From a virus: a stretch of DNA of 24,278 nucleotides. Below are positions 6,901 to 24,278 of the stretch, in pieces. Every line of letters starts with the position of its first letter. Position 1 is the first letter of the stretch. Below the pieces are notes generated by a model. That model was not told the origin of the DNA. It ran no database searches and was given only the letters and a program-made list of their open reading frames with translations. The position numbers and the translations under genes were made by a program. The stretch is taken from positions 1 through 24,278 of IMG/VR virus record IMGVR_UViG_3300033149_002776, one strand, 5' to 3'.

Positions 6901-8211
6901 TTAAACGTCGTGATCCGTGGTCACATCGGCCCACGATCTTTCACGGCGGACGGTTCCCCTGGTATTCGACGAACCGAGACGTCTCGGCCCTGTTCTCGAA
7001 TCTTTCAGGTGAGCCATTGGTAATGCCTTTTGTACGTACTTTTCGATAAAACCGGCACTCTCAACCATATCCTCGATGTCCATCTCAGCCTGTGCCATGA
7101 CAGCAGCCAAGATAGCATGGTCAAACCTAACACCGGCAGGATGTTTATTGTTGGCAGGTTCGACATAATAGATGCTATTCGCACCTGGGTTCGTACCGCC
7201 AGCGGCACCGGACGGTTTAAGCCAGTCAGCCACGGTAAATGTGCCAGTTGCAGCAGTATAGTCCGTCACAGCAGCATAACTACCTTTACCCGTACCGGCG
7301 ATTATTGTAATCACCCAACCGTTAAAGTAGTCATCAGCCTCGCCACGAGTCGCATCTACTATCGTAGTATCAGTAGCAGAGTCTACCACTCCGCACTCAC
7401 AATCGAGTTTATCAAACATGAGTTCGTAAGGAAACTCAAGGACCTCAGCCGAATTCGATTGTGGGTCGATGAACAATTCCCATCGACGTGTCGGGCCAAG
7501 GTTCTCATCAGTGTACTCCAGAGGTCGGATGGCTGCGAGTTTCGGGAACCCACTACTCACCGAACATGAACGACGTTGACGTATAACCGATTCATGCACC
7601 CATCTAATTTGCGTAGAATGTGCCGAACTCGCCTCATACGTTATATCACCGCTGTACTCACCCGAGAAGTTCTCGTTGAGTGGATACCTGGCCTTATCAC
7701 CTTCCACCGTTTCTACATTGGTGATGGCAAAGGTGTCGCCGGTTGCTGGATTCGTCCCACCGGCATTGCCATACTTGTCAAGCCAGTCAGCCACTGTGCA
7801 TGTGCCAGTTGCAGTGGTATAATCAGTAATCTTGGCGTAACTGCCTTTGCCAGTACCTGTCAGAATGTAACAGTACCAGTCATTTAGGTCGTCATCACTG
7901 TCGTAAGTAGCCGACAATGTGGCATCAACGAGGGTGGTGTCCGTCGCCGAATCGACCGTTCCTGTAACCCTGGTGGTAGCCAGAGTTACGCTCATTATTC
8001 TGCGGGTCCATCGCCAGCCCTCGGATGGCCCGTCAGCTATAAACATGCGTATGCCATCGTTGACCACGTCCTTGAGTAGTTCAAGATCGGCCTTGTCTAT
8101 AGGCGGCAACGCCTCATCAGTACCGGACGAGCCATAATAGGCCATACCAGACTTGCGGGCCACTCGCGTTATCAGTTGCCTGAACGTAAGGGCTGAGGTA
8201 GGTTCGCTCAT
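6901..8211 (-). CDS. Head-to-tail adaptor-like protein with two inserted repeats
   Basis: 436 residues; the ATG overlaps the upstream stop as ATGA. The N-terminus (LTFRQLITRVARKSGMAYYG, then LELLKDVVNDGIRMFI to about residue 70) has the helical look of adaptor or head-completion proteins that plug into the portal, and the C-terminal part (RFDHAILAAVMAQAEMDIED) is helical too. Between them lie two copies of a 75-80-residue module, about residues 85-163 and 275-349. Both contain VDSATDTT.VDAT, GTGKGSYA..TDYT.ATGT.TVADWL and AGGTNP. These read as an inserted surface domain duplicated inside the protein; the copies are also similar at DNA level. The likely role is connecting portal and tail hub. 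The adaptor call rests on position and fold-like pattern, while the repeats are directly visible. Confidence 0.75.
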   Translation of the reverse strand: MSEPTSALTFRQLITRVARKSGMAYYGSSGTDEALPPIDKADLELLKDVVNDGIRMFIADGPSEGWRWTRRIMSVTLATTRVTGTVDSATDTTLVDATLSATYDSDDDLNDWYCYILTGTGKGSYAKITDYTTATGTCTVADWLDKYGNAGGTNPATGDTFAITNVETVEGDKARYPLNENFSGEYSGDITYEASSAHSTQIRWVHESVIRQRRSCSVSSGFPKLAAIRPLEYTDENLGPTRRWELFIDPQSNSAEVLEFPYELMFDKLDCECGVVDSATDTTIVDATRGEADDYFNGWVITIIAGTGKGSYAAVTDYTAATGTFTVADWLKPSGAAGGTNPGANSIYYVEPANNKHPAGVRFDHAILAAVMAQAEMDIEDMVESAGFIEKYVQKALPMAHLKDSRTGPRRLGSSNTRGTVRRERSWADVTTDHDV

Positions 8212-12495: not shown

Positions 12496-14283
12496 CTACA
12501 CCATCCCCGCAGGTTGTGGAGCACCCTGCTGCTGCATCTGGGCTGTCTCCCCGCCAGGTCCAAACTGTCTCGTATCATAGCCGCTCGTATAGCCGCCATT
12601 CTGTTTTATAGCACCCATCGACATCGAACCAGCCCCGGCTTTACCTGCCGGTTGTGGTCCCATCATCATCATAAGCTGTAGCCTATTCATGTACTCAGGG
12701 TCTTCAAACCAATCACCAACTTCTTCAAGTATCCCCATCTCATCGGCCAAATCAGTAATGGCCTTCGGGATATTGAACTGCACACCCATCTGCATTGACA
12801 CCATGCCGGACTGCATTATGGACGGCACCAGCTTCGTGGCGAATTCAAGGATACGCCGTGTCTTGACCTTCGGGTCAAGCCGTGACATAGACCTTGCTTT
12901 AATGCTGAACGTAAACTCAAGAAAGTCCCCGGTGCGTTGCTCGGGGGTTAGCACCAACTGCTCGTAACGTCCGCCTGGTAGTCTACGTGATACTGGCAAT
13001 TCAATGAACGGATCCGTATGCAGATACCAAGCGTGCTTCATCGCCACCTGGCCGGCCACCTTGTATCCGGCGAGCCGCATATCTTCAAGGCCGATATTGG
13101 CGTTTTCCTGCATCCCGGCATACTCGGTCGCAGTGTCGGCTCCAGTATCACCACCGGCAAGTTGCTCCGGGTTCTGTGACATGTAATTGAACCAATGCTG
13201 CAATGTTGAAATAATTCGCTCATTACTCTGGTTCTGCCCACCGAACGATAATACCTTAGCACTGTCTGGATTACCGATAATAAAATCACCATCGGGAGCG
13301 GTACGCAGGTCCTCACCTTCATCAGCCCCCGAAGGGTCAACTACGGCCACATCTTTCTGACGGTCGGCCTGATCAAGCGTTTTCGACATCATGCGATTCG
13401 ATGCCACATGCAAATCGTACCACACACCAACGGGCGGTACACCGAACGGACTGCCGGGAATCTCTTCAGTCAACGACATGAACGTATATGGCCCCTCATC
13501 GGGTCCATAGAACTCATTGACAGAGATATAATCATCAGTTATAAGTTGCTCCGGGTCGGGAATGCGTATCAGGGCCTCTGCTCCGGGCACGTATATCTCA
13601 ACCACGTCAACCAGGTCCTGTAACTCGAATATCTCCTGGTTTGACATGTTGGACTGCATCAGTGCTTCGACCTTATGACCGGCATCGGCATGTTTTGACC
13701 GTGGCAACAGCATAACAACATCGTGGTCGCACGTATCGTCATCAAGCAAAAACTGTCTCGGTACTCTGTTTCTATCACCAAGAAATGCTGATTTGCGAAA
13801 GCGTTTGCACTCACTATCAAACACGAAATCATCCAGGTCAACGATGTCCGTATATATCTGTCCCTGATCTATTAGGGTGTCACCGAAGTTGATAAGCTGC
13901 CCACCTTGAGCCAGCCCGGTCTTTAGTATACCAAGCATAAACATAGCATCTACAGCACACAGTCTCAACGTGCTGGCAAGATCAATACGCTTAGCAAGAT
14001 CGTCAAGCCCAAGACCAAGCAAGTACGCATAGTCCCGGTGTTCTACGATTTCGGTATCTACCTTGGTGACGCCATTCCGCATAATGATGTTCGGTATGAT
14101 AGCTCTTATGGCGTGAAATATCTGATTGATGGGTTCGTCACCGACGACGCCCTCGTCTTTCGCCATATACTGGCCGATGTACTCACGCAGGAACATGGCT
14201 CTCGCACGCCTTTGTCGCCGTGTGCGTCTGAAGCCGTCCTTCACCATGAGTTGTAGCTGGCGTGGACCGATTTCTTGTGGCAT
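12496..14283 (-). CDS. Portal protein
   Basis: 595 residues, starting at an ATG that overlaps the terminase stop (TAATG), with GGGAG before it. It lies directly after the large terminase and before the scaffold, as portals do. Characteristic elements are the helical N-terminus (RRTRRQRRARAMFLREYIGQYM), NQIFHAIRAIIPNIIMRNG at about residues 53-71, the beta wing region (LDDFVFDSECKRFRKSAFLGDRN), PPVGVWYDLHVASNRMMSKTLDQADRQKD as the long stem helix near 300, and the NEQ-type crown helices (ISTLQHWFNYMSQNPEQLAGG). The C-terminus is low-complexity, rich in Met, Gly and Gln (MQQQGAPQPAGMV). It would form the dodecameric ring at one capsid vertex through which DNA is pumped by the terminase. Confidence 0.88.
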   Translation of the reverse strand: MPQEIGPRQLQLMVKDGFRRTRRQRRARAMFLREYIGQYMAKDEGVVGDEPINQIFHAIRAIIPNIIMRNGVTKVDTEIVEHRDYAYLLGLGLDDLAKRIDLASTLRLCAVDAMFMLGILKTGLAQGGQLINFGDTLIDQGQIYTDIVDLDDFVFDSECKRFRKSAFLGDRNRVPRQFLLDDDTCDHDVVMLLPRSKHADAGHKVEALMQSNMSNQEIFELQDLVDVVEIYVPGAEALIRIPDPEQLITDDYISVNEFYGPDEGPYTFMSLTEEIPGSPFGVPPVGVWYDLHVASNRMMSKTLDQADRQKDVAVVDPSGADEGEDLRTAPDGDFIIGNPDSAKVLSFGGQNQSNERIISTLQHWFNYMSQNPEQLAGGDTGADTATEYAGMQENANIGLEDMRLAGYKVAGQVAMKHAWYLHTDPFIELPVSRRLPGGRYEQLVLTPEQRTGDFLEFTFSIKARSMSRLDPKVKTRRILEFATKLVPSIMQSGMVSMQMGVQFNIPKAITDLADEMGILEEVGDWFEDPEYMNRLQLMMMMGPQPAGKAGAGSMSMGAIKQNGGYTSGYDTRQFGPGGETAQMQQQGAPQPAGMV

Positions 14284-16208
14284 TATTTTCTCCCCAAACT
14301 CCAGCGTGTCCTATATTTCTTGGACGTCGTTCTCTTCTTACGCTCCATAGCCGCTTTATACCTCGCAGCAGGAGACCTCGCCGGGGCATTGCGTTCGCCC
14401 GGCTTCGGCCCTCTTGGAATATCCTTGTCATCAATCGTAAGTGCGTCCGCTATGACGACGTCACCGTGGGTCTTGCGTGCCGACGCCTTTTCCTCGACCA
14501 TTGCCGCGGGACCTATCCCGCCGTCATCATAGTAGACATACATTTTCATCTCATCAAGGCCCCATCTCGACGGATTCACATATCCACCATGAGCCAGGGC
14601 ACGGTCATACTGGGTGAGTAGCATCTCTTTCGACTTCTCATTGGAATGCCACCCATATTTCTTCTGTTTCTTCTCGTGGATCGTGCCAACAGTAGGCATC
14701 CGGTAATAGTACGGGTAGCGGTACACCCGCACCATCAATCTGCCAAAATCCCATCCAGGCCCGTTCATCTCCCACTTCAAAAACGGCAAGCCCTTTCGAC
14801 CACCGCACCAAAGAGCCAAGGCCGCGACCACTCGCACCATCTCGTATGGCGGGGTCGTGGCATTCCGCCACTCAGCGATCTTCTGTTTAGTCTGCTTGCA
14901 CTTGATCGAGACCACCGAGTTCGATGCCCCCATACCTTTTCCCACATCAATACCAAAGATATAGCTAAGGTTCTGGTCTGGCCTGCCGCCTATGAGTTCA
15001 GTCCACACCCGTAGATCGCCATTATTATCCCGCTTAAACGAGATACCTTTACGATCTCGTTGGTGTATGAGAGTAGCTATTGAATCGTCCGCGATAGTAC
15101 GCTTCATCCCCACAGTCCATCGACTTATCGGATCTCTGGCAAACAGGGCGATGTGCTTCTCAATGTTGCTCACCGTAAAGAAATTCGAGCCAGCCTCAAG
15201 GTCTTCGGCGTCGAGTTCCCTCGCCATTTCCTGTGGCGATCTCACTTTTTCCTCTTCGTTGTAAAATGGAGACCGTATCTTCCAGACTTTGGTAACGGGG
15301 TCCTGAACCACATACCGCCCCTTGCCTTTGTCTGGGTGATCCCACCACATCAATGGGAATACAACAATCTTACCCGAGTTCTTCCATTTACTATACTCAG
15401 TACCAGGTCCAGCCACAGTCGAATTCACGATACGCATCAAGCTGGCGTCTCGCGTAGCACTCCGCATTAGTGTGCCATTCTTTACCTTGGCAAACTCGTC
15501 AAGCAATGTCAACAATCGCCTGTCACCGGAAGCAGCGTGTTCCGTGGTCGATTCACCATCGATGCAACTACCATTAAGGGCGTTTTTCATGTGCATCTTC
15601 GTGCGATATTTGCCGCCCACCTGCGTCATAGGTGGCTGCATCCAGTCCGGCAACCAGTGATTTATGTAATCATGCCGTTGAAACAACGCCTTCATATTGC
15701 CCGGTTTGTCTACGTAATCCTCGGTCCTGGACAATTCGAGCAACTGACTGTCTGGGCGGAACAACCACAGCCAGTGTACAAACGCGATACTACACCAACT
15801 TGCTCCCATGTCCCTTGATTTGTTGATGAGTATGTCAAGTGCGTTGGCAAGGTGATACTCAAATCTGCCAAATAGAACATCTTGCACATCCCAGGTAATA
15901 AAGGGAGCGTCGGCAAAGGCCGACTGTGTTCGTTCACCCGAAATACCCTCAACTTCAAACTGATGGTATGTCCACCCAAAGGTGTTAATCCAGTACAATA
16001 CTGACTCAGTACAAGCAGCCATGAGATCGTTCTGGAGCCCCTCGTCATCCTCGGCTTCAGCAAGCAACTTCTCGCGGTACTGAAGATTCTCCATCTCCAA
16101 TTTTGGAACCACGAGACCAGTCTTCGGGCATGTCCACGTAGGCTGTATGTCCGGGAATGGCTCTCTAAGCTGGGGCTTCAGTATTTCCTGGCCCACTGTC
16201 ACTGGCAA
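14283..16208 (-). CDS. terL: Terminase large subunit (packaging ATPase and nuclease)
   Basis: 641 residues. The ATPase domain has the Walker-A-like NKSRDMGASW at residues 129-138 and the Walker B LLTLLDEFAK at 232-241 with the catalytic Asp-Glu. The C-terminal RNase H-fold nuclease has its acidic residues in FGIDVGKGMG (D421), KWEMNGPG (E480) and HGDVVIADAL (D583 and D588). The enzyme powers DNA packaging into the procapsid and cuts concatemers. Start choice: TTG at 16208 lies two bases after a GGGGGG run; GTG at 16202 has better spacing, and either gives an almost identical protein. It overlaps the small-terminase candidate by 44 bases (38 from the GTG) and the portal ATG by one base. The SRxMGxSW form of the P-loop is typical of many phage terminases lacking a classic GKS. 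Confidence 0.93.
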   Translation of the reverse strand: MPVTVGQEILKPQLREPFPDIQPTWTCPKTGLVVPKLEMENLQYREKLLAEAEDDEGLQNDLMAACTESVLYWINTFGWTYHQFEVEGISGERTQSAFADAPFITWDVQDVLFGRFEYHLANALDILINKSRDMGASWCSIAFVHWLWLFRPDSQLLELSRTEDYVDKPGNMKALFQRHDYINHWLPDWMQPPMTQVGGKYRTKMHMKNALNGSCIDGESTTEHAASGDRRLLTLLDEFAKVKNGTLMRSATRDASLMRIVNSTVAGPGTEYSKWKNSGKIVVFPLMWWDHPDKGKGRYVVQDPVTKVWKIRSPFYNEEEKVRSPQEMARELDAEDLEAGSNFFTVSNIEKHIALFARDPISRWTVGMKRTIADDSIATLIHQRDRKGISFKRDNNGDLRVWTELIGGRPDQNLSYIFGIDVGKGMGASNSVVSIKCKQTKQKIAEWRNATTPPYEMVRVVAALALWCGGRKGLPFLKWEMNGPGWDFGRLMVRVYRYPYYYRMPTVGTIHEKKQKKYGWHSNEKSKEMLLTQYDRALAHGGYVNPSRWGLDEMKMYVYYDDGGIGPAAMVEEKASARKTHGDVVIADALTIDDKDIPRGPKPGERNAPARSPAARYKAAMERKKRTTSKKYRTRWSLGRK

Positions 16209-18328: not shown

Positions 18329-18481
18329 CTATTGGTGCGTTCGTATAAAATGTTGCAGTTCTGCCCGGGTCATCCCCTCGGCCATTTTCTTCGACGCCCC
18401 CTTCACCTTAACCCGCTTCCCCTTTTTCTTCGCCAGGGCTATCCGTGCCGCTATCGCTTGTTTCTTACTCTTCGCCGGCAT
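18329..18481 (-). CDS. 50-residue MPAKSK-type basic protein (DUF3008-like)
   Basis: 50 residues: MPAKSKKQAIAARIALAKKK, then a basic stretch and ASKKMAEGMTRAELQHFIRT near the end. Short proteins that begin MPAKSK and end with a K-x-[AM]-x-x-M-[ST]-x-x-[EQ]L motif are common in phages and plasmids and are grouped as DUF3008-like; function unknown, probably nucleic-acid-associated from the charge. The ribosome site AGAAGGAAAATG is good. Its first 11 codons and 33 bases of leader occur a second time, nearly unchanged, at 18802-18872, where they begin a different protein. This copy keeps the complete family length, so it is likely the original. Confidence 0.78.
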   Translation of the reverse strand: MPAKSKKQAIAARIALAKKKGKRVKVKGASKKMAEGMTRAELQHFIRTHQ

Positions 18482-18514
18482 TTTCCTTCTCTTTTAACGT
18501 TGATAATACCGTTG
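18444..18514. repeat. 71-bp direct repeat, copy 1 (leader plus MPAKSK start)
   Basis: This 71-bp stretch matches 18802-18872 with two mismatches by my alignment. It covers the leader, ribosome site and first 11-12 codons of the 50-residue gene. The offset is 358 bp, which is close to one small gene, as expected from a tandem duplication. Confidence 0.9.
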
Positions 18515-18515
18515 C

Positions 18516-18839
18516 TTATTCGTCAAGTACCAAACGTACAATACCGTCATTATCTCTAATCACTTCCCCCCGTGCCCCACGGTTTATGGCACTGAGGACA
18601 CTGGCATCGCCCAGGATCACAGTTCCAGGTGTCAGACTGATGCGGGTAACAGCCAAAAACCTGTTACCCCCATCTGAGTTACGGAGATGAACCTTCCTCC
18701 CACCATAACCAGGAGGGATTTCTATCGCTGTATTCGATCTCAGTCTACACTCTTGTGTCCCTTTTATTACCGGTGGTATCACAAAGAAACACTCGAAGCA
18801 TCGTGTCGCTATCGCTTGTTTCTTACTCTTCGCCGGCAT
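18516..18839 (-). CDS. Chimeric 107-residue protein made by tandem duplication
   Basis: 107 residues. The first 11 residues (MPAKSKKQAIA) are those of the neighbouring 50-residue protein. The rest resembles the protein coded at 18894-19259: both have a PGYGG segment in the middle and end in related strands, here ISLTPGTVILGDASVLSAIN followed by RGARGEVIRDNDGIVRLVLD. The join lies just after codon 12. The middle has three Cys (RCFECFF, ECRLR), a possible metal site. The C-terminal pattern (LTxGTxIxV...VLxAIxRG) looks like a small beta-barrel; some short regulators share such a pattern, but I cannot name a family. If the chimeric start is used, its leader is the same as for the 50-residue gene. 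Confidence 0.75.
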   Translation of the reverse strand: MPAKSKKQAIATRCFECFFVIPPVIKGTQECRLRSNTAIEIPPGYGGRKVHLRNSDGGNRFLAVTRISLTPGTVILGDASVLSAINRGARGEVIRDNDGIVRLVLDE

Positions 18840-18893: not shown

Positions 18894-19259
18894 CTATTTG
18901 TCAAGCATCAAACGTGCAATGCCATCGCTATCTCCAATCACTTTTCCTCGTATCCCACGACTTATCGCCCGTAATACTTCAGGTTCGACCCAAATCGGTG
19001 TGCCCGCGGTTAAATTTGTCAACGTGATGATAATCGGCGTCACGAGACAGGAGTTGTCTTTCGAGTTCAGTCTGTAATCAGGCGCGGAGTAATTATCACA
19101 GCCTTCATATCCATGACAGACATCGGTAGGGCCTCGTTTCGGTTTACCACCATATCCCGGAACGGTCTCCGGTTTCTTGACATACCCCTTGCATTCTGGA
19201 CGAGTGCAGTGGATCATTTTATGACAATATAACATGAGAGTGTACCATTGATTGTCCAA
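18894..19259 (-). CDS. Cys-rich 121-residue protein, parent of the chimeric neighbour
   Basis: 121 residues if started at the TTG at 19259, nine bases after a GGGGG in the end of the previous gene; ATG at 19235 is an alternative that removes eight residues. The N-terminal half has Cys and His spaced like a zinc site (YCHKMIHCTRPECKGY, later VCHGYEGCDNY). A PGYGGKPKRGP linker follows. The C-terminal 40 residues read ITLTNLTAGTPIWVEPEVLR and then AISRGIRGKVIGDSDGIARL, related to the end of the chimeric protein coded next. This copy looks like the more complete ancestor. It may be a small regulator with a zinc finger and a beta-barrel; no family is recognised. Confidence 0.75.
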   Translation of the reverse strand: MDNQWYTLMLYCHKMIHCTRPECKGYVKKPETVPGYGGKPKRGPTDVCHGYEGCDNYSAPDYRLNSKDNSCLVTPIIITLTNLTAGTPIWVEPEVLRAISRGIRGKVIGDSDGIARLMLDK

Positions 19260-19508: not shown

Positions 19509-19620
19509 TCACGTAGCTCCGATACATCTTTATATACTCGTGGGCGTCGGCTTTCTTTCGGGTCCTACGCCATTTACCCCACGCCTTCTGAAGCGGTGTC
19601 GATTTCGGTAGCGGTTTCAT
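19486..19620 (-). CDS. 44-residue basic protein after the protease gene
   Basis: 44 residues starting MKPLPKSTPLQKAWGKWRRT and ending YIKMYRSYVNAINRMP. The ATG overlaps the TGA of the protease gene as ATGA, so it is translationally coupled. It overlaps the following gene by 23 bases in another frame. The composition is basic and helical with Trp at positions 14 and 17, which may suit binding of nucleic acid or acidic lipids. No family recognised; kept because of the tight coupling and because the frame fills the only gap between two genes. Confidence 0.65.
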   Translation of the reverse strand: MKPLPKSTPLQKAWGKWRRTRKKADAHEYIKMYRSYVNAINRMP

Positions 19621-20249
19621 ACCCCATGTTCCCGTAAAAACGCACAGATACTGAACGACGGGATAATCACGGTCATTCCGCCATTCCCACCGCTTACCAT
19701 TCCGACAATTCCATCATCCATGTCAAATACCGGACTCCCCGAACTGCCGCCCAATATACAGGCGTCAATCAGGTATACTTCACAGTCCCACGACCATTTA
19801 TCATACGTCGTAGTCTTTCTGGATAATATACCTGTGGTCAACGTGCCGGCAAACAACGACGGTGAACCTATCACGAATACCTTCGAGCCGATTTCCGGGT
19901 CCGTCTCCAGGTTAAACACCGGCCCGTCGTATTCGCTCTCGGCCCGGAACAACGCGAGATCGTAGTGATCGTTGACGGCAACCCTCTTCACCTTCACGGT
20001 CTTGCCGTTTAGCAGTCGTAACTCCGCGGTCCCATCAATTATGCTGTTCGCAACGTGGGCGTTCGTTAAAACGTGCCTCTCATCTACGAAAAACCCTGAG
20101 CCAACACCGCGTATCTCATTGCTGAAATCGTCGTTTCTGTCGCCGTATATCGTAACCGTACTCGACACTCGGGCGTCGTACATCTTACTCAACGGTGCCA
20201 CTCGTACACACGAGCACAATAACAGACTAATCAGCAGTATTCTCTTCAT
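19617..20249 (-). CDS. Exported trypsin-like serine protease with lipoprotein signal
   Basis: 210 residues. The start MKRILLISLLLCSC is a short lipoprotein-type signal with LCSC as likely lipobox, so the mature protein would be lipid-anchored in the cell envelope or periplasm. The chymotrypsin/HtrA-type triad is complete: H65 in VLTNAHV, D97 in HYDLALF, S170 in GGSSGSPVF. Supporting motifs are GVGSGFFVDERHVLTNAHV at 48-66, GSKVFVIGSP at 121-130, and VGMVSGGNGGMTVIIPS near the end. No PDZ domain follows; the length is that of a bare protease domain. Protease lipoproteins are not usual phage virion genes. It could process host envelope proteins, exclude other phages or act in lysis; a prohead protease is unlikely because of the export signal. 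It overlaps the zinc ribbon gene upstream by 23 bases. Confidence 0.88.
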   Translation of the reverse strand: MKRILLISLLLCSCVRVAPLSKMYDARVSSTVTIYGDRNDDFSNEIRGVGSGFFVDERHVLTNAHVANSIIDGTAELRLLNGKTVKVKRVAVNDHYDLALFRAESEYDGPVFNLETDPEIGSKVFVIGSPSLFAGTLTTGILSRKTTTYDKWSWDCEVYLIDACILGGSSGSPVFDMDDGIVGMVSGGNGGMTVIIPSFSICAFLREHGV

Positions 20250-22722: not shown

Positions 22723-22950
22723 ATGGTGGATATTGAAATAAACACGAATACAAAAGATAGTTTTGTGGTGGGCCGGAACGGTGTGATCCCCATTATAGCT
22801 ATCAAGGTATGGCAAGCAGAGGACCGCGGTATGTTGTATATTAACGGTGTTGGTGTGAGCGGAAAAGTGCTTAATGCCGGATTTGTTATCGATAAGAAGG
22901 CGGCAGAAAAACTGTTGACCAAGATTTCTGAAGTACGATCCAGAAAGTGA
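22723..22950 (+). CDS. 75-residue protein preceding the radical SAM gene
   Basis: 75 residues from the ATG at 22723, with GAGG six bases before it; the in-frame GTG at 22711 lies in the structured element and is rejected. It reads MVDIEINTNTKDSFVVGRNG, then VIPIIAIKVWQAEDRGMLYI, and ends with a helix (VIDKKAAEKLLTKISEVRSR). A strand-rich front and a helical tail suggest a compact small fold. It is directly followed, eight bases on, by the radical SAM gene using the same start cassette. It could be a partner or substrate of that enzyme, but lacks the Cys/Gly-rich core of typical modified peptides. No family assigned. Confidence 0.78.
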   Translation: MVDIEINTNTKDSFVVGRNGVIPIIAIKVWQAEDRGMLYINGVGVSGKVLNAGFVIDKKAAEKLLTKISEVRSRK

Positions 22951-22958
22951 GGTATAAC

Positions 22959-24125
22959 ATGAACACCCCAAACGTATTGTTAGTACAAATCGGCAGTGAC
23001 CTGTTGACCACCGGTGAGAGCAAACAGGTCCGTGAGTATTATGACCTGTTGTACAGTGGAGTGCGGCCCGGTTACTATAAGTTTGGTCCGACGTGGGAAA
23101 TCCCCCTGTGGATGGCAGAGATAAAAGCCATACTGCCGAATACTATGGTGTATTTTGCTATCGGTAAAACAGATGTGGGATGGCTAACACTGAATTATGA
23201 CGTAGTACAGGGTTTAATATCACTGTGCAGACGTTTCCAATATGTCTGCTTCTCCGCACTGGATTGCAACAAGCACATCATTCGTCAAGTGGTGAATCAG
23301 TGCCCTAACACCATGTTTTGTGTTGGTGGGTACTGCGGCGAACACTTCGCTAAATCTGAAAATGTGCAGTGGTTTTACAGTATGAGACAATTCAGACGAT
23401 GGTGGAAGAAACATGACAACGGTTACTGTGTCAACTATAATACTTGGGCTGGACATAAAACTATCGGGCGTCTTCGGTTATCCACCGGCTGCAATAACAA
23501 TTGCAGATTCTGTACGATAACCGGCAGGGTAAAAGAATTGACTGAGGCGGAGATATTTCAACAAGTCGATGCTCTGAGTGTTCTGGACAGTCCGTTGATC
23601 TATCTGGACGACAAAACATTCGGACAGGCGGTAAACCACGTTTTGCTGCCGGAAATTGCCGCACGTTTTCGCCGGATAATGTCCTACGGTTTTCAGGGAT
23701 TTATCATTCAGACCACCGCCGCTCAGATAATACATAAGTCAGAAGAATTTTTCAGAGAATCTGGTATCAAGTATGTTGAAATCGGTGTAGAATCATACAA
23801 CAACGATATTCTTGGGGCCATGAACAAGCCGGCCCGCGAAATGACGATACAGGCGGCGGTGAGCAAACTGAAACGGCTCGGCATACAGGTTGTCGCCAAT
23901 GTGATGATCGGTTTACCAGGCGAGACGGCAGAAACATACAACAAAACATTGAGTTGGCTTTTAGACAACAAATCTGCCATAAGTCATCTTAACATTTATA
24001 CATACGTGGACTATGACAGTCCCAAACCAACGTCTGAGAATTGTGGTGGGCATAGCGAGATTGACAAATCGTTTGCCAAGACACTGTACGATATTGGAAC
24101 AACGATGCTCGAAAGTGAGGTCTAA
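22959..24125 (+). CDS. Radical SAM enzyme with degenerate B12-binding-like N-terminus
   Basis: 388 residues from the ATG at 22959 (GAGG six bases before; the in-frame GTG at 22947 overlaps the previous gene). The cluster motif C178-x3-C182-x2-C185 lies in RLSTGCNNNCRFCTI and binds the 4Fe-4S cluster for S-adenosylmethionine cleavage. YLDDKTF at 215-221, KYVEIGVESYNNDIL at 271-285 and VMIGLPGET at 315-323 are typical of the barrel of the B12/methylthiotransferase-like superfamily. Residues 1-165 resemble a Rossmann-like B12-binding domain in layout (FSALDCNKHIIRQ, then FCVGGYCGEHF), but the DxHxxG cobalamin motif is missing. The C-terminus is short and has no TRAM domain. The substrate is unknown; nucleotide, RNA, peptide or lipid modification are all possible. 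Confidence 0.9.
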   Translation: MNTPNVLLVQIGSDLLTTGESKQVREYYDLLYSGVRPGYYKFGPTWEIPLWMAEIKAILPNTMVYFAIGKTDVGWLTLNYDVVQGLISLCRRFQYVCFSALDCNKHIIRQVVNQCPNTMFCVGGYCGEHFAKSENVQWFYSMRQFRRWWKKHDNGYCVNYNTWAGHKTIGRLRLSTGCNNNCRFCTITGRVKELTEAEIFQQVDALSVLDSPLIYLDDKTFGQAVNHVLLPEIAARFRRIMSYGFQGFIIQTTAAQIIHKSEEFFRESGIKYVEIGVESYNNDILGAMNKPAREMTIQAAVSKLKRLGIQVVANVMIGLPGETAETYNKTLSWLLDNKSAISHLNIYTYVDYDSPKPTSENCGGHSEIDKSFAKTLYDIGTTMLESEV

Positions 24126-24126
24126 T

Positions 24127-24278
24127 ATGATGTATAAACTAACAGACCAAAACATGCAAACCTGTAACGGATTTCAGTACACACTCGGAAAATGGGCAGA
24201 GGCAACCGGTGATGAAAACAAGAGCTTATGTTCAGATGCTTGGTTGCACTGTTATAGCAGTCCAGAATTAGCGGCATT
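24127..24278 (+). CDS. N-terminal part of a conserved phage protein, runs off the edge
   Basis: At least 50 residues, cut by the window edge. It starts MMYKLTDQNMQTCNGFQYTL and continues GKWAEATGDENKSLCSDAWL, then HCYSSPELAA. The layout LTD.N..T...[QW]..GxW....G....LCS..WLH.Y..P.LA occurs in a family of phage proteins of unknown function (I associate it with DUF7666, unverified). The start uses the same GTGAGGTNTAANATG cassette as the two genes before it and begins one base after the radical SAM stop, so these genes form one translation-coupled group. Confidence 0.75.
   Translation, partial: MMYKLTDQNMQTCNGFQYTLGKWAEATGDENKSLCSDAWLHCYSSPELAA

Follow-up and report, generated by a model that had tools for sequence, protein, structure and literature searches.

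Several sets of described proteins lie closest to the system reported here. The B12-dependent radical S-adenosylmethionine (SAM) methyltransferases (MgmA, CysS, OxsB and TsrM, and the enzymes represented by the PhpK and HpnJ models) share with it a two-domain layout, EIGVES and GLPGE barrel motifs and the S-x-L/M and GG elements of the N-domain, while AprD4, a radical SAM 1,2-diol dehydratase, shares the full-length fold, the single cluster motif and the Rossmann N-domain. The methylthiotransferases MiaB, RimO and MtaB can be aligned in barrel and overall fold. Polyvalent proteins, described from phages and conjugative elements, are predicted to enter the host along with injected phage DNA (Iyer et al. 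2017, PMC5512222). Here we examine a radical SAM gene in a 24,278-base virus record of IMG/VR (IMGVR_UViG_3300033149_002776; this whole stretch is referred to as the window). The gene (22959..24125, + strand) is an intact open reading frame (ORF) of 388 aa plus stop, whose product is probably active and belongs to a new radical SAM family that is essentially confined to phages and has a predicted cobalamin-binding-type Rossmann N-domain. Most of its relatives are modules of far larger, polyvalent-type phage proteins.

The window protein matches the Pfam Radical_SAM family (PF04055; cut-off 29.5 bits) with a score of 59.8 bits and E=4.8e-16, far beyond chance. Conservation was assessed in 61 non-redundant relatives of 28-51% identity. 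The initial annotation, made from the window alone, had reported the ORF and three radical SAM motifs, all of which lie at the residues it gave: the CX3CX2C [4Fe-4S]/SAM motif CNNNCRFC at residues 178-185 (23490..23513, +), EIGVES at 274-279 (23778..23795, +) and MIGLPGE at 316-322 (23904..23924, +). C178, C182, C185, E274, G276, E278 and G318 are each present in 61/61 relatives, as are Y215 and DKTFGQ (218-223) within a further family signature, YLDDKTFGQ (residues 215-223; 23601..23627, +). Other invariant residues are R171, G177, G247-F248, Q251, K290-P291 and N314, giving a strict signature of CX3CX2C, Y-x2-DKTFGQ, GF-x2-QT, E-x-G-x-E, KP and N-x3-G. Because active-site residues are invariant at this level of divergence, the gene is under selection. 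No Cys outside the cluster motif is conserved among the 61 relatives and no auxiliary-cluster Cys is kept in the family; N-domain Cys columns reach at most 9/61 relatives, except column 173 beside the barrel start (12/61). Motifs and structural model together show an intact radical SAM active-site motif set, with three Cys predicted to hold one [4Fe-4S] cluster in a SAM-type barrel.

An AlphaFold2 model built with 59 family sequences has a mean predicted local distance difference test score of 92.7 and a predicted template modelling score of 0.91, and contains alternating strands and helices in the N-domain followed by the radical SAM barrel. Residues 1-165 (22959..23453, +) are assigned as a cobalamin-binding-type Rossmann domain from this model, its fold matches and weak PF02310 matches in relatives; the predicted arrangement, a Rossmann B12-binding-type domain ahead of the barrel, is that of class B enzymes. 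By Z score the best full-length fold match is AprD4 (PDB 6fd2; Z 23.7, 342 residues aligned, 3.4 Å), followed by MgmA (9ccb; Z 23.5, 311 aligned, 3.4 Å), CysS (Z 22.1, 338 aligned, 4.1 Å), the MtaB model (Z 21.0), MiaB/RimO (20.6-20.7) and then OxsB and TsrM; TokK has this fold likewise. As AprD4 and MgmA are tied, the fold cannot choose between a cobalamin-dependent and a cobalamin-free enzyme. The initial annotation had described the first ~165 residues as a degenerate B12-type domain lacking DxHxxG. The layout agrees with the predicted fold and DxHxxG occurs in 0/61 N-domains, but "degenerate" is too strong: Q10, Y27, Y32, G38-Y39, W46-E47-x-P49-x-W51, S99-x-L/M and G123-G124-Y125 are each kept in 80-100% of the 61 relatives, and the domain is not decaying.

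How the N-domain would be used divides two of the rival explanations. That the protein is a class B-like cobalamin-dependent methyltransferase, whose N-domain would bind cobalamin and which would add a methyl group to a host protein, RNA or metabolite at an unactivated carbon (or phosphorus), we rate only slightly below an even prospect. The full-length fold is that of MgmA, CysS, OxsB, TsrM and TokK, and essentially all relatives carry two elements of the B12-binding fold, S-x-L/M (S99-A-L101; 23253..23261, +) with S in 60/60 relatives that have a letter there and L or M in 58, and GG (G123-G124-Y125; 23325..23333, +), likewise in 60/60. The B12-binding family PF02310 weakly matches 12/59 relatives (best 3.5e-5, in a Rhizobium protein), but these matches fall below the Pfam cut-off and the window protein itself has none. 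The closest NCBIfam core is the P-methyltransferase PhpK (7.4e-18), which covers the barrel only and scores 64.2 bits against a cut-off of 600; HpnJ and methylthiotransferase models follow. None of the cut-offs of the named class B subfamilies (PhpK, HpnJ, MgmA, BchE and others) is reached, the window protein is shorter than the B12-dependent methyltransferases and lacks a C-terminal extension, and AprD4 has the identical fold without cobalamin. The missing DxHxxG also counts against this explanation but is not decisive, because Mmp10, a B12-dependent radical SAM enzyme, lacks both DXHXXG and SXL (PMC8828468). Overall, the N-domain appears remotely like a B12-binding domain, and the predicted fold supports a B12-like layout.

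A cobalamin-free enzyme of AprD4 type is a possible but distinctly less favored explanation, under which the Rossmann domain would be a structural relic and the enzyme would dehydrate, isomerise or deoxygenate a sugar, nucleotide or modified base. PLGLAYLA is the usual stretch of B12 enzymes, and the conserved W46-E47-x-P49-x-W51 and G38-Y39 of the N-domain are unlike it. AprD4 is, moreover, the top structural match (tied with MgmA), and the family profile matches AprD4 with 3e-7 over the barrel. On the other side, identity to AprD4 is 13%, the NCBIfam AprD4 model gives 16.9 bits against a cut-off of 500, and no aminoglycoside-type or sugar genes, or other sugar-pathway context, were noticed beside family members.

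Other known families fit less well. No NCBIfam model reaches its cut-off for the window protein, PHROGs and PADLOC give nothing convincing, and PDB sequence matches (RimO, MgmA, AprD4, Elp3) are confined to the barrel. A clear match to a methylthiotransferase or Elp3 was named beforehand as one result that would make this an ordinary acquired gene; we looked for one and found none. Unlike MiaB, RimO and MtaB, the family lacks the three N-domain Cys of a second [4Fe-4S] cluster, since no Cys is conserved beyond the three of the cluster motif, and the window protein has no TRAM match and ends with the last helix of the barrel. It also has no C-terminal GNAT acetyltransferase domain, and only barrel residues match Elp3. 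QueE and the anaerobic ribonucleotide reductase activase NrdG, the short phage-type enzymes that have no Rossmann N-domain, had already been set aside in the initial annotation, in agreement with the 388-aa length and well-modelled N-domain found here. Its reading of the protein as an undescribed radical SAM enzyme whose N-domain is of B12 type likewise stands, as no curated family scores above cut-off.

A single-protein search of IMG/VR gave no relatives. A terminase search led to 80 related phage loci; when 50 of the records were searched, 2 proved to have a full-length homologue of the radical SAM protein, one free-standing (G003; 396 aa, 42% identity) and one as a domain within a 1698-aa protein (G019; 40% identity). 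A profile of these two homologues and the window protein (profile A1) found 67 loci in IMG/VR and three among 84,980 species genomes: a Neptuniibacter contig from a metagenome-assembled genome, which has phage-like neighbours including DUF7178 and other genes common to the phage loci; Rhizobium smilacinae; and one weak match. In a phage collection of 50,697 records, four different queries gave no full-length relative and only barrel-only matches, and plasmid matches were barrel-only as well (at most ~31% identical). In the collections searched the family is thus essentially viral, and the initial reading as an "undescribed phage enzyme" holds. Among matches rejected as family members was gp36 of the cultured Streptomyces phage SF3 (L213:2182-3681), which matches over the barrel only; it is annotated as a B12-binding radical SAM protein and lies beside a thymidylate kinase and a NUDIX gene. 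Separately, a related phage (L091, G015:1-14000) carries a different, short radical SAM gene (G015 6919-7344, +; a 242-codon frame) at a similar distance from its contig end.

One relative alone is clearly not from a phage, that of R. smilacinae, the only genome matched among 298 Rhizobiaceae. Its locus (L160:1751-10863) encodes an ATP-grasp ligase, a MATE exporter, a class II aldolase, an aldehyde dehydrogenase-like protein, a cobalamin adenosyltransferase (2.2e-65) and a nucleoside phosphorylase, and has the look of a metabolite pathway gained by horizontal transfer. The adenosyltransferase is a hint of cobalamin use and so lends some weight to the methyltransferase explanation. Class II aldolase is the last enzyme of the disposal of 5'-deoxyadenosine, the radical SAM by-product. 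The phosphorylase and aldolase together resemble that disposal pathway (described in PMC10986504 and PMC12632272).

In the 67 viral loci the domain most often lies within giant proteins: ~47 encode it in ORFs that span 710-4351 aa, some of them incomplete at the end of the locus, whereas 18 encode free-standing proteins (369-549 aa) and 2 are truncated. The giant ORFs are mostly unrelated to one another beyond a common block of ~450-500 aa, which indicates that the radical SAM unit is a mobile module. Fused members, for example L105 and L121, share a ~40-aa leader (..P..xYxxA...NxWVR..NxxRxLMVQ) immediately ahead of the Rossmann domain; this leader is missing from the window copy. Other domains found in the giants include ART-PolyVal and NUDIX (L098), NUDIX (L121), a DnaJ zinc domain (L105), a SprT-like domain slightly under cut-off (L112), LPD38 in one giant (1e-40), GNAT and GHKL ATPase in individual giants, and DUF7178 within the same polypeptide in several. 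ART-PolyVal and LPD38 are named for polyvalent proteins, and the 10 giant-gene neighbours tested include 4 with matches to families of virion or packaging proteins (head fibre, tail spike, virion structural protein, terminase). Most relatives resemble polyvalent proteins as modules of 710-4351-aa phage proteins, some with LPD38, ART-PolyVal, SprT-like or GNAT domains and some beside virion genes. This recurrent placement of a radical SAM module goes beyond the initial annotation. It appears to be new among polyvalent proteins, because the word "radical" is absent from the main text of PMC5512222; "radical SAM" is absent from two follow-up surveys. The module can also be lost, judging from a remnant or replacement of it at L210 (G100:24500-33137; match G100 26608-26790, -), a polyvalent-type ORF that keeps two N-domain pieces and no barrel; the insert between the pieces (GSHAMG..SDIDIYV) reads like a nucleotidyltransferase.

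In phylogenetic trees the window protein and three free-standing relatives form a clade (support 100/100) that sits in a 28-row set with 24 fused forms (97/92). In none of the bootstrap trees do the fused forms stand wholly apart from the free ones. This placement suggests that the window gene was released from a polyvalent ancestor. In the approximately unbiased test a tree with the fused forms as one separate group was not rejected (p=0.344), so that release from a fusion is suggestive rather than proven.

We consider the chances evenly balanced that the protein acts early in infection as an effector, modifying a host target by means of a 5'-deoxyadenosyl radical and perhaps cobalamin. In such a mechanism the cluster would reduce SAM to the 5'-deoxyadenosyl radical, which would take a hydrogen from the host molecule (protein, RNA or metabolite) that sits over the barrel. 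The N-domain would either hold cobalamin for methyl transfer or, as in AprD4, be a relic without it. The enzymes of most relatives would be synthesised late and packed into the virion, to be injected within a polyvalent protein. In the window phage, the free-standing gene, possibly released from such a protein, would act on the same kind of target, and its product would be made soon after infection, since the gene lies among small plus-strand genes that form a module running opposite to the virion genes. That the window is a phage contig is indicated by its terminase-like gene (14286-16208, -) and SU10-portal-like gene (12499-14283, -), both assigned by family match, and by its IMG/VR record; the virion module is on the minus strand and the small genes, including the radical SAM gene, run on the plus strand from ~21.8 kb. 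The broader version, that phages prepackage an oxygen-sensitive, possibly cobalamin-using radical SAM enzyme in giant virion proteins and inject it so that, as infection begins, a host macromolecule is modified by radical chemistry, with the window phage holding a released free-standing form, is offered more tentatively, as a scenario that we hold to be rather doubtful.

Several observations weigh against the effector reading. AprD4, the top fold match, does not need cobalamin, and the window copy is a single-unit 388-aa protein rather than a multi-domain one. The R. smilacinae relative is one isolated locus, and the result of the approximately unbiased test leaves one separate group of the fused forms statistically acceptable. 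DUF7178, the most frequent neighbour of the family, is not tied to it in the reverse direction: among 35 records with DUF7178, the radical SAM gene is present in at most 5, and in one of these as a mere remnant. No experimentally studied relative was found in the literature. The proposed injection builds on PMC5512222, in which it is predicted for polyvalent proteins.

We regard it as unlikely that the gene is an ordinary accessory gene taken from bacteria, encoding a radical SAM enzyme of metabolism or tRNA modification that plays no part in conflict. Its patchy occurrence (2/50 terminase-related records), the many phages with unrelated radical SAM genes and the free relative in a Rhizobium metabolic cluster would all be in keeping with such an origin. 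However, cellular relatives are almost nil (three matches, one weak, among the species genomes, and in the Rhizobiaceae only the R. smilacinae genome itself), no family matches above cut-off, and the domain recurs inside otherwise unrelated giant phage proteins.

Around the window gene, packing is tight. The ATG is preceded by GAGG ~7 nt upstream, an orphan ORF ends at 22950 and a DUF7666 gene starts at 24127. The initial annotation had proposed that these two neighbours form a system with the radical SAM gene, a proposal that the related records contradict. The upstream ORF (22723..22950, +; 75 aa from its ATG, 79 codons from GTG 22711) has no Pfam, PHROG, NCBIfam or PADLOC match, and its relatives were found in 0/34 related records, in a search that had no positive control; it is probably not part of the system. 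The DUF7666 gene (24127..24278, +; PF24703, E=4.8e-7), which is cut by the contig end, adjoins the radical SAM gene only in the closest relative, L092, and is present in three relatives without a radical SAM gene; it is probably not a dedicated partner. We therefore rejected both as operon partners. A recurrent protein of 86-109 aa (..GLWxGxxExSLxIEI..) lies near free-standing members in 6/20 free loci (L094:6824-7105, L092:2541-2801, L147:7384-7662, L150:7568-7870, L156:1367-1696, L159:4076-4345). It was considered as an S-AdoMet lyase, since one member gave a weak match (E=0.003), but its profile matched no such lyase in PDB and this identity is not claimed.

DUF7178 (PF23802) occurs in 21/50 radical SAM-positive records vs 1/48 terminase relatives without the radical SAM gene (Fisher 1e-6), a contrast that is confounded by record size and falls to p=0.013 if the negative records are restricted to long ones. 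The DUF7178 profile has a match to 8-oxoguanine DNA glycosylase/AP lyase at 1e-4. Given the reverse counts above, it was rejected as an obligate partner and is a frequent companion, not a dedicated partner. DUF7178 proteins (e.g. L147:7655-8278) are widespread in cyanophages, roseophages and mycobacteriophages, and are also fused into polyvalent-type proteins. A pathway of DNA base repair or hypermodification with a DUF7178 glycosylase-like protein, to which this association, the fusions within single giant polypeptides and the glycosylase match would point, is quite improbable given the failed reverse test, the weaker contrast in long records, the lack of any DUF7178 gene seen in the window (whose contig ends just past the radical SAM gene) and the lack of a related enzyme in a known hypermodification region. 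The last point concerns gp53 of Pseudomonas phage M6, a radical SAM-like gene in the thymidine hypermodification region; like the window gene it is a phage gene with a radical SAM cluster motif, and it was rejected as a relative because there is no homology beyond that motif.

Elsewhere in the window, the minus-strand region contains a gene for a trypsin-like serine protease (19617-20249, -; PF13365, 4e-23) with a lipoprotein-like signal start. Two adjacent small ORFs (18329-18481 and 18516-18839, both -) share the start MPAKSKKQAIA, and the second of these and the ORF at 18894-19259 have similar C-termini (DNDGIVRLVLDE / DSDGIARLMLDK); from these resemblances we read the 18329-18839 ORFs and the 18894-19259 ORF as products of local duplication and divergence.

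Radical SAM chemistry reaches unactivated positions that few other enzymes can, and we found no mention of a radical SAM activity among the polyvalent effectors of phages. Being conserved, nearly confined to viruses and marked by a strict signature, the family provides a testable handle on whether a radical enzyme is carried into the cell and, if so, what it modifies. If the proposal is true, a new class of modification would join those of phage-host conflict, and a B12/radical SAM-type reaction not described before could come to light.
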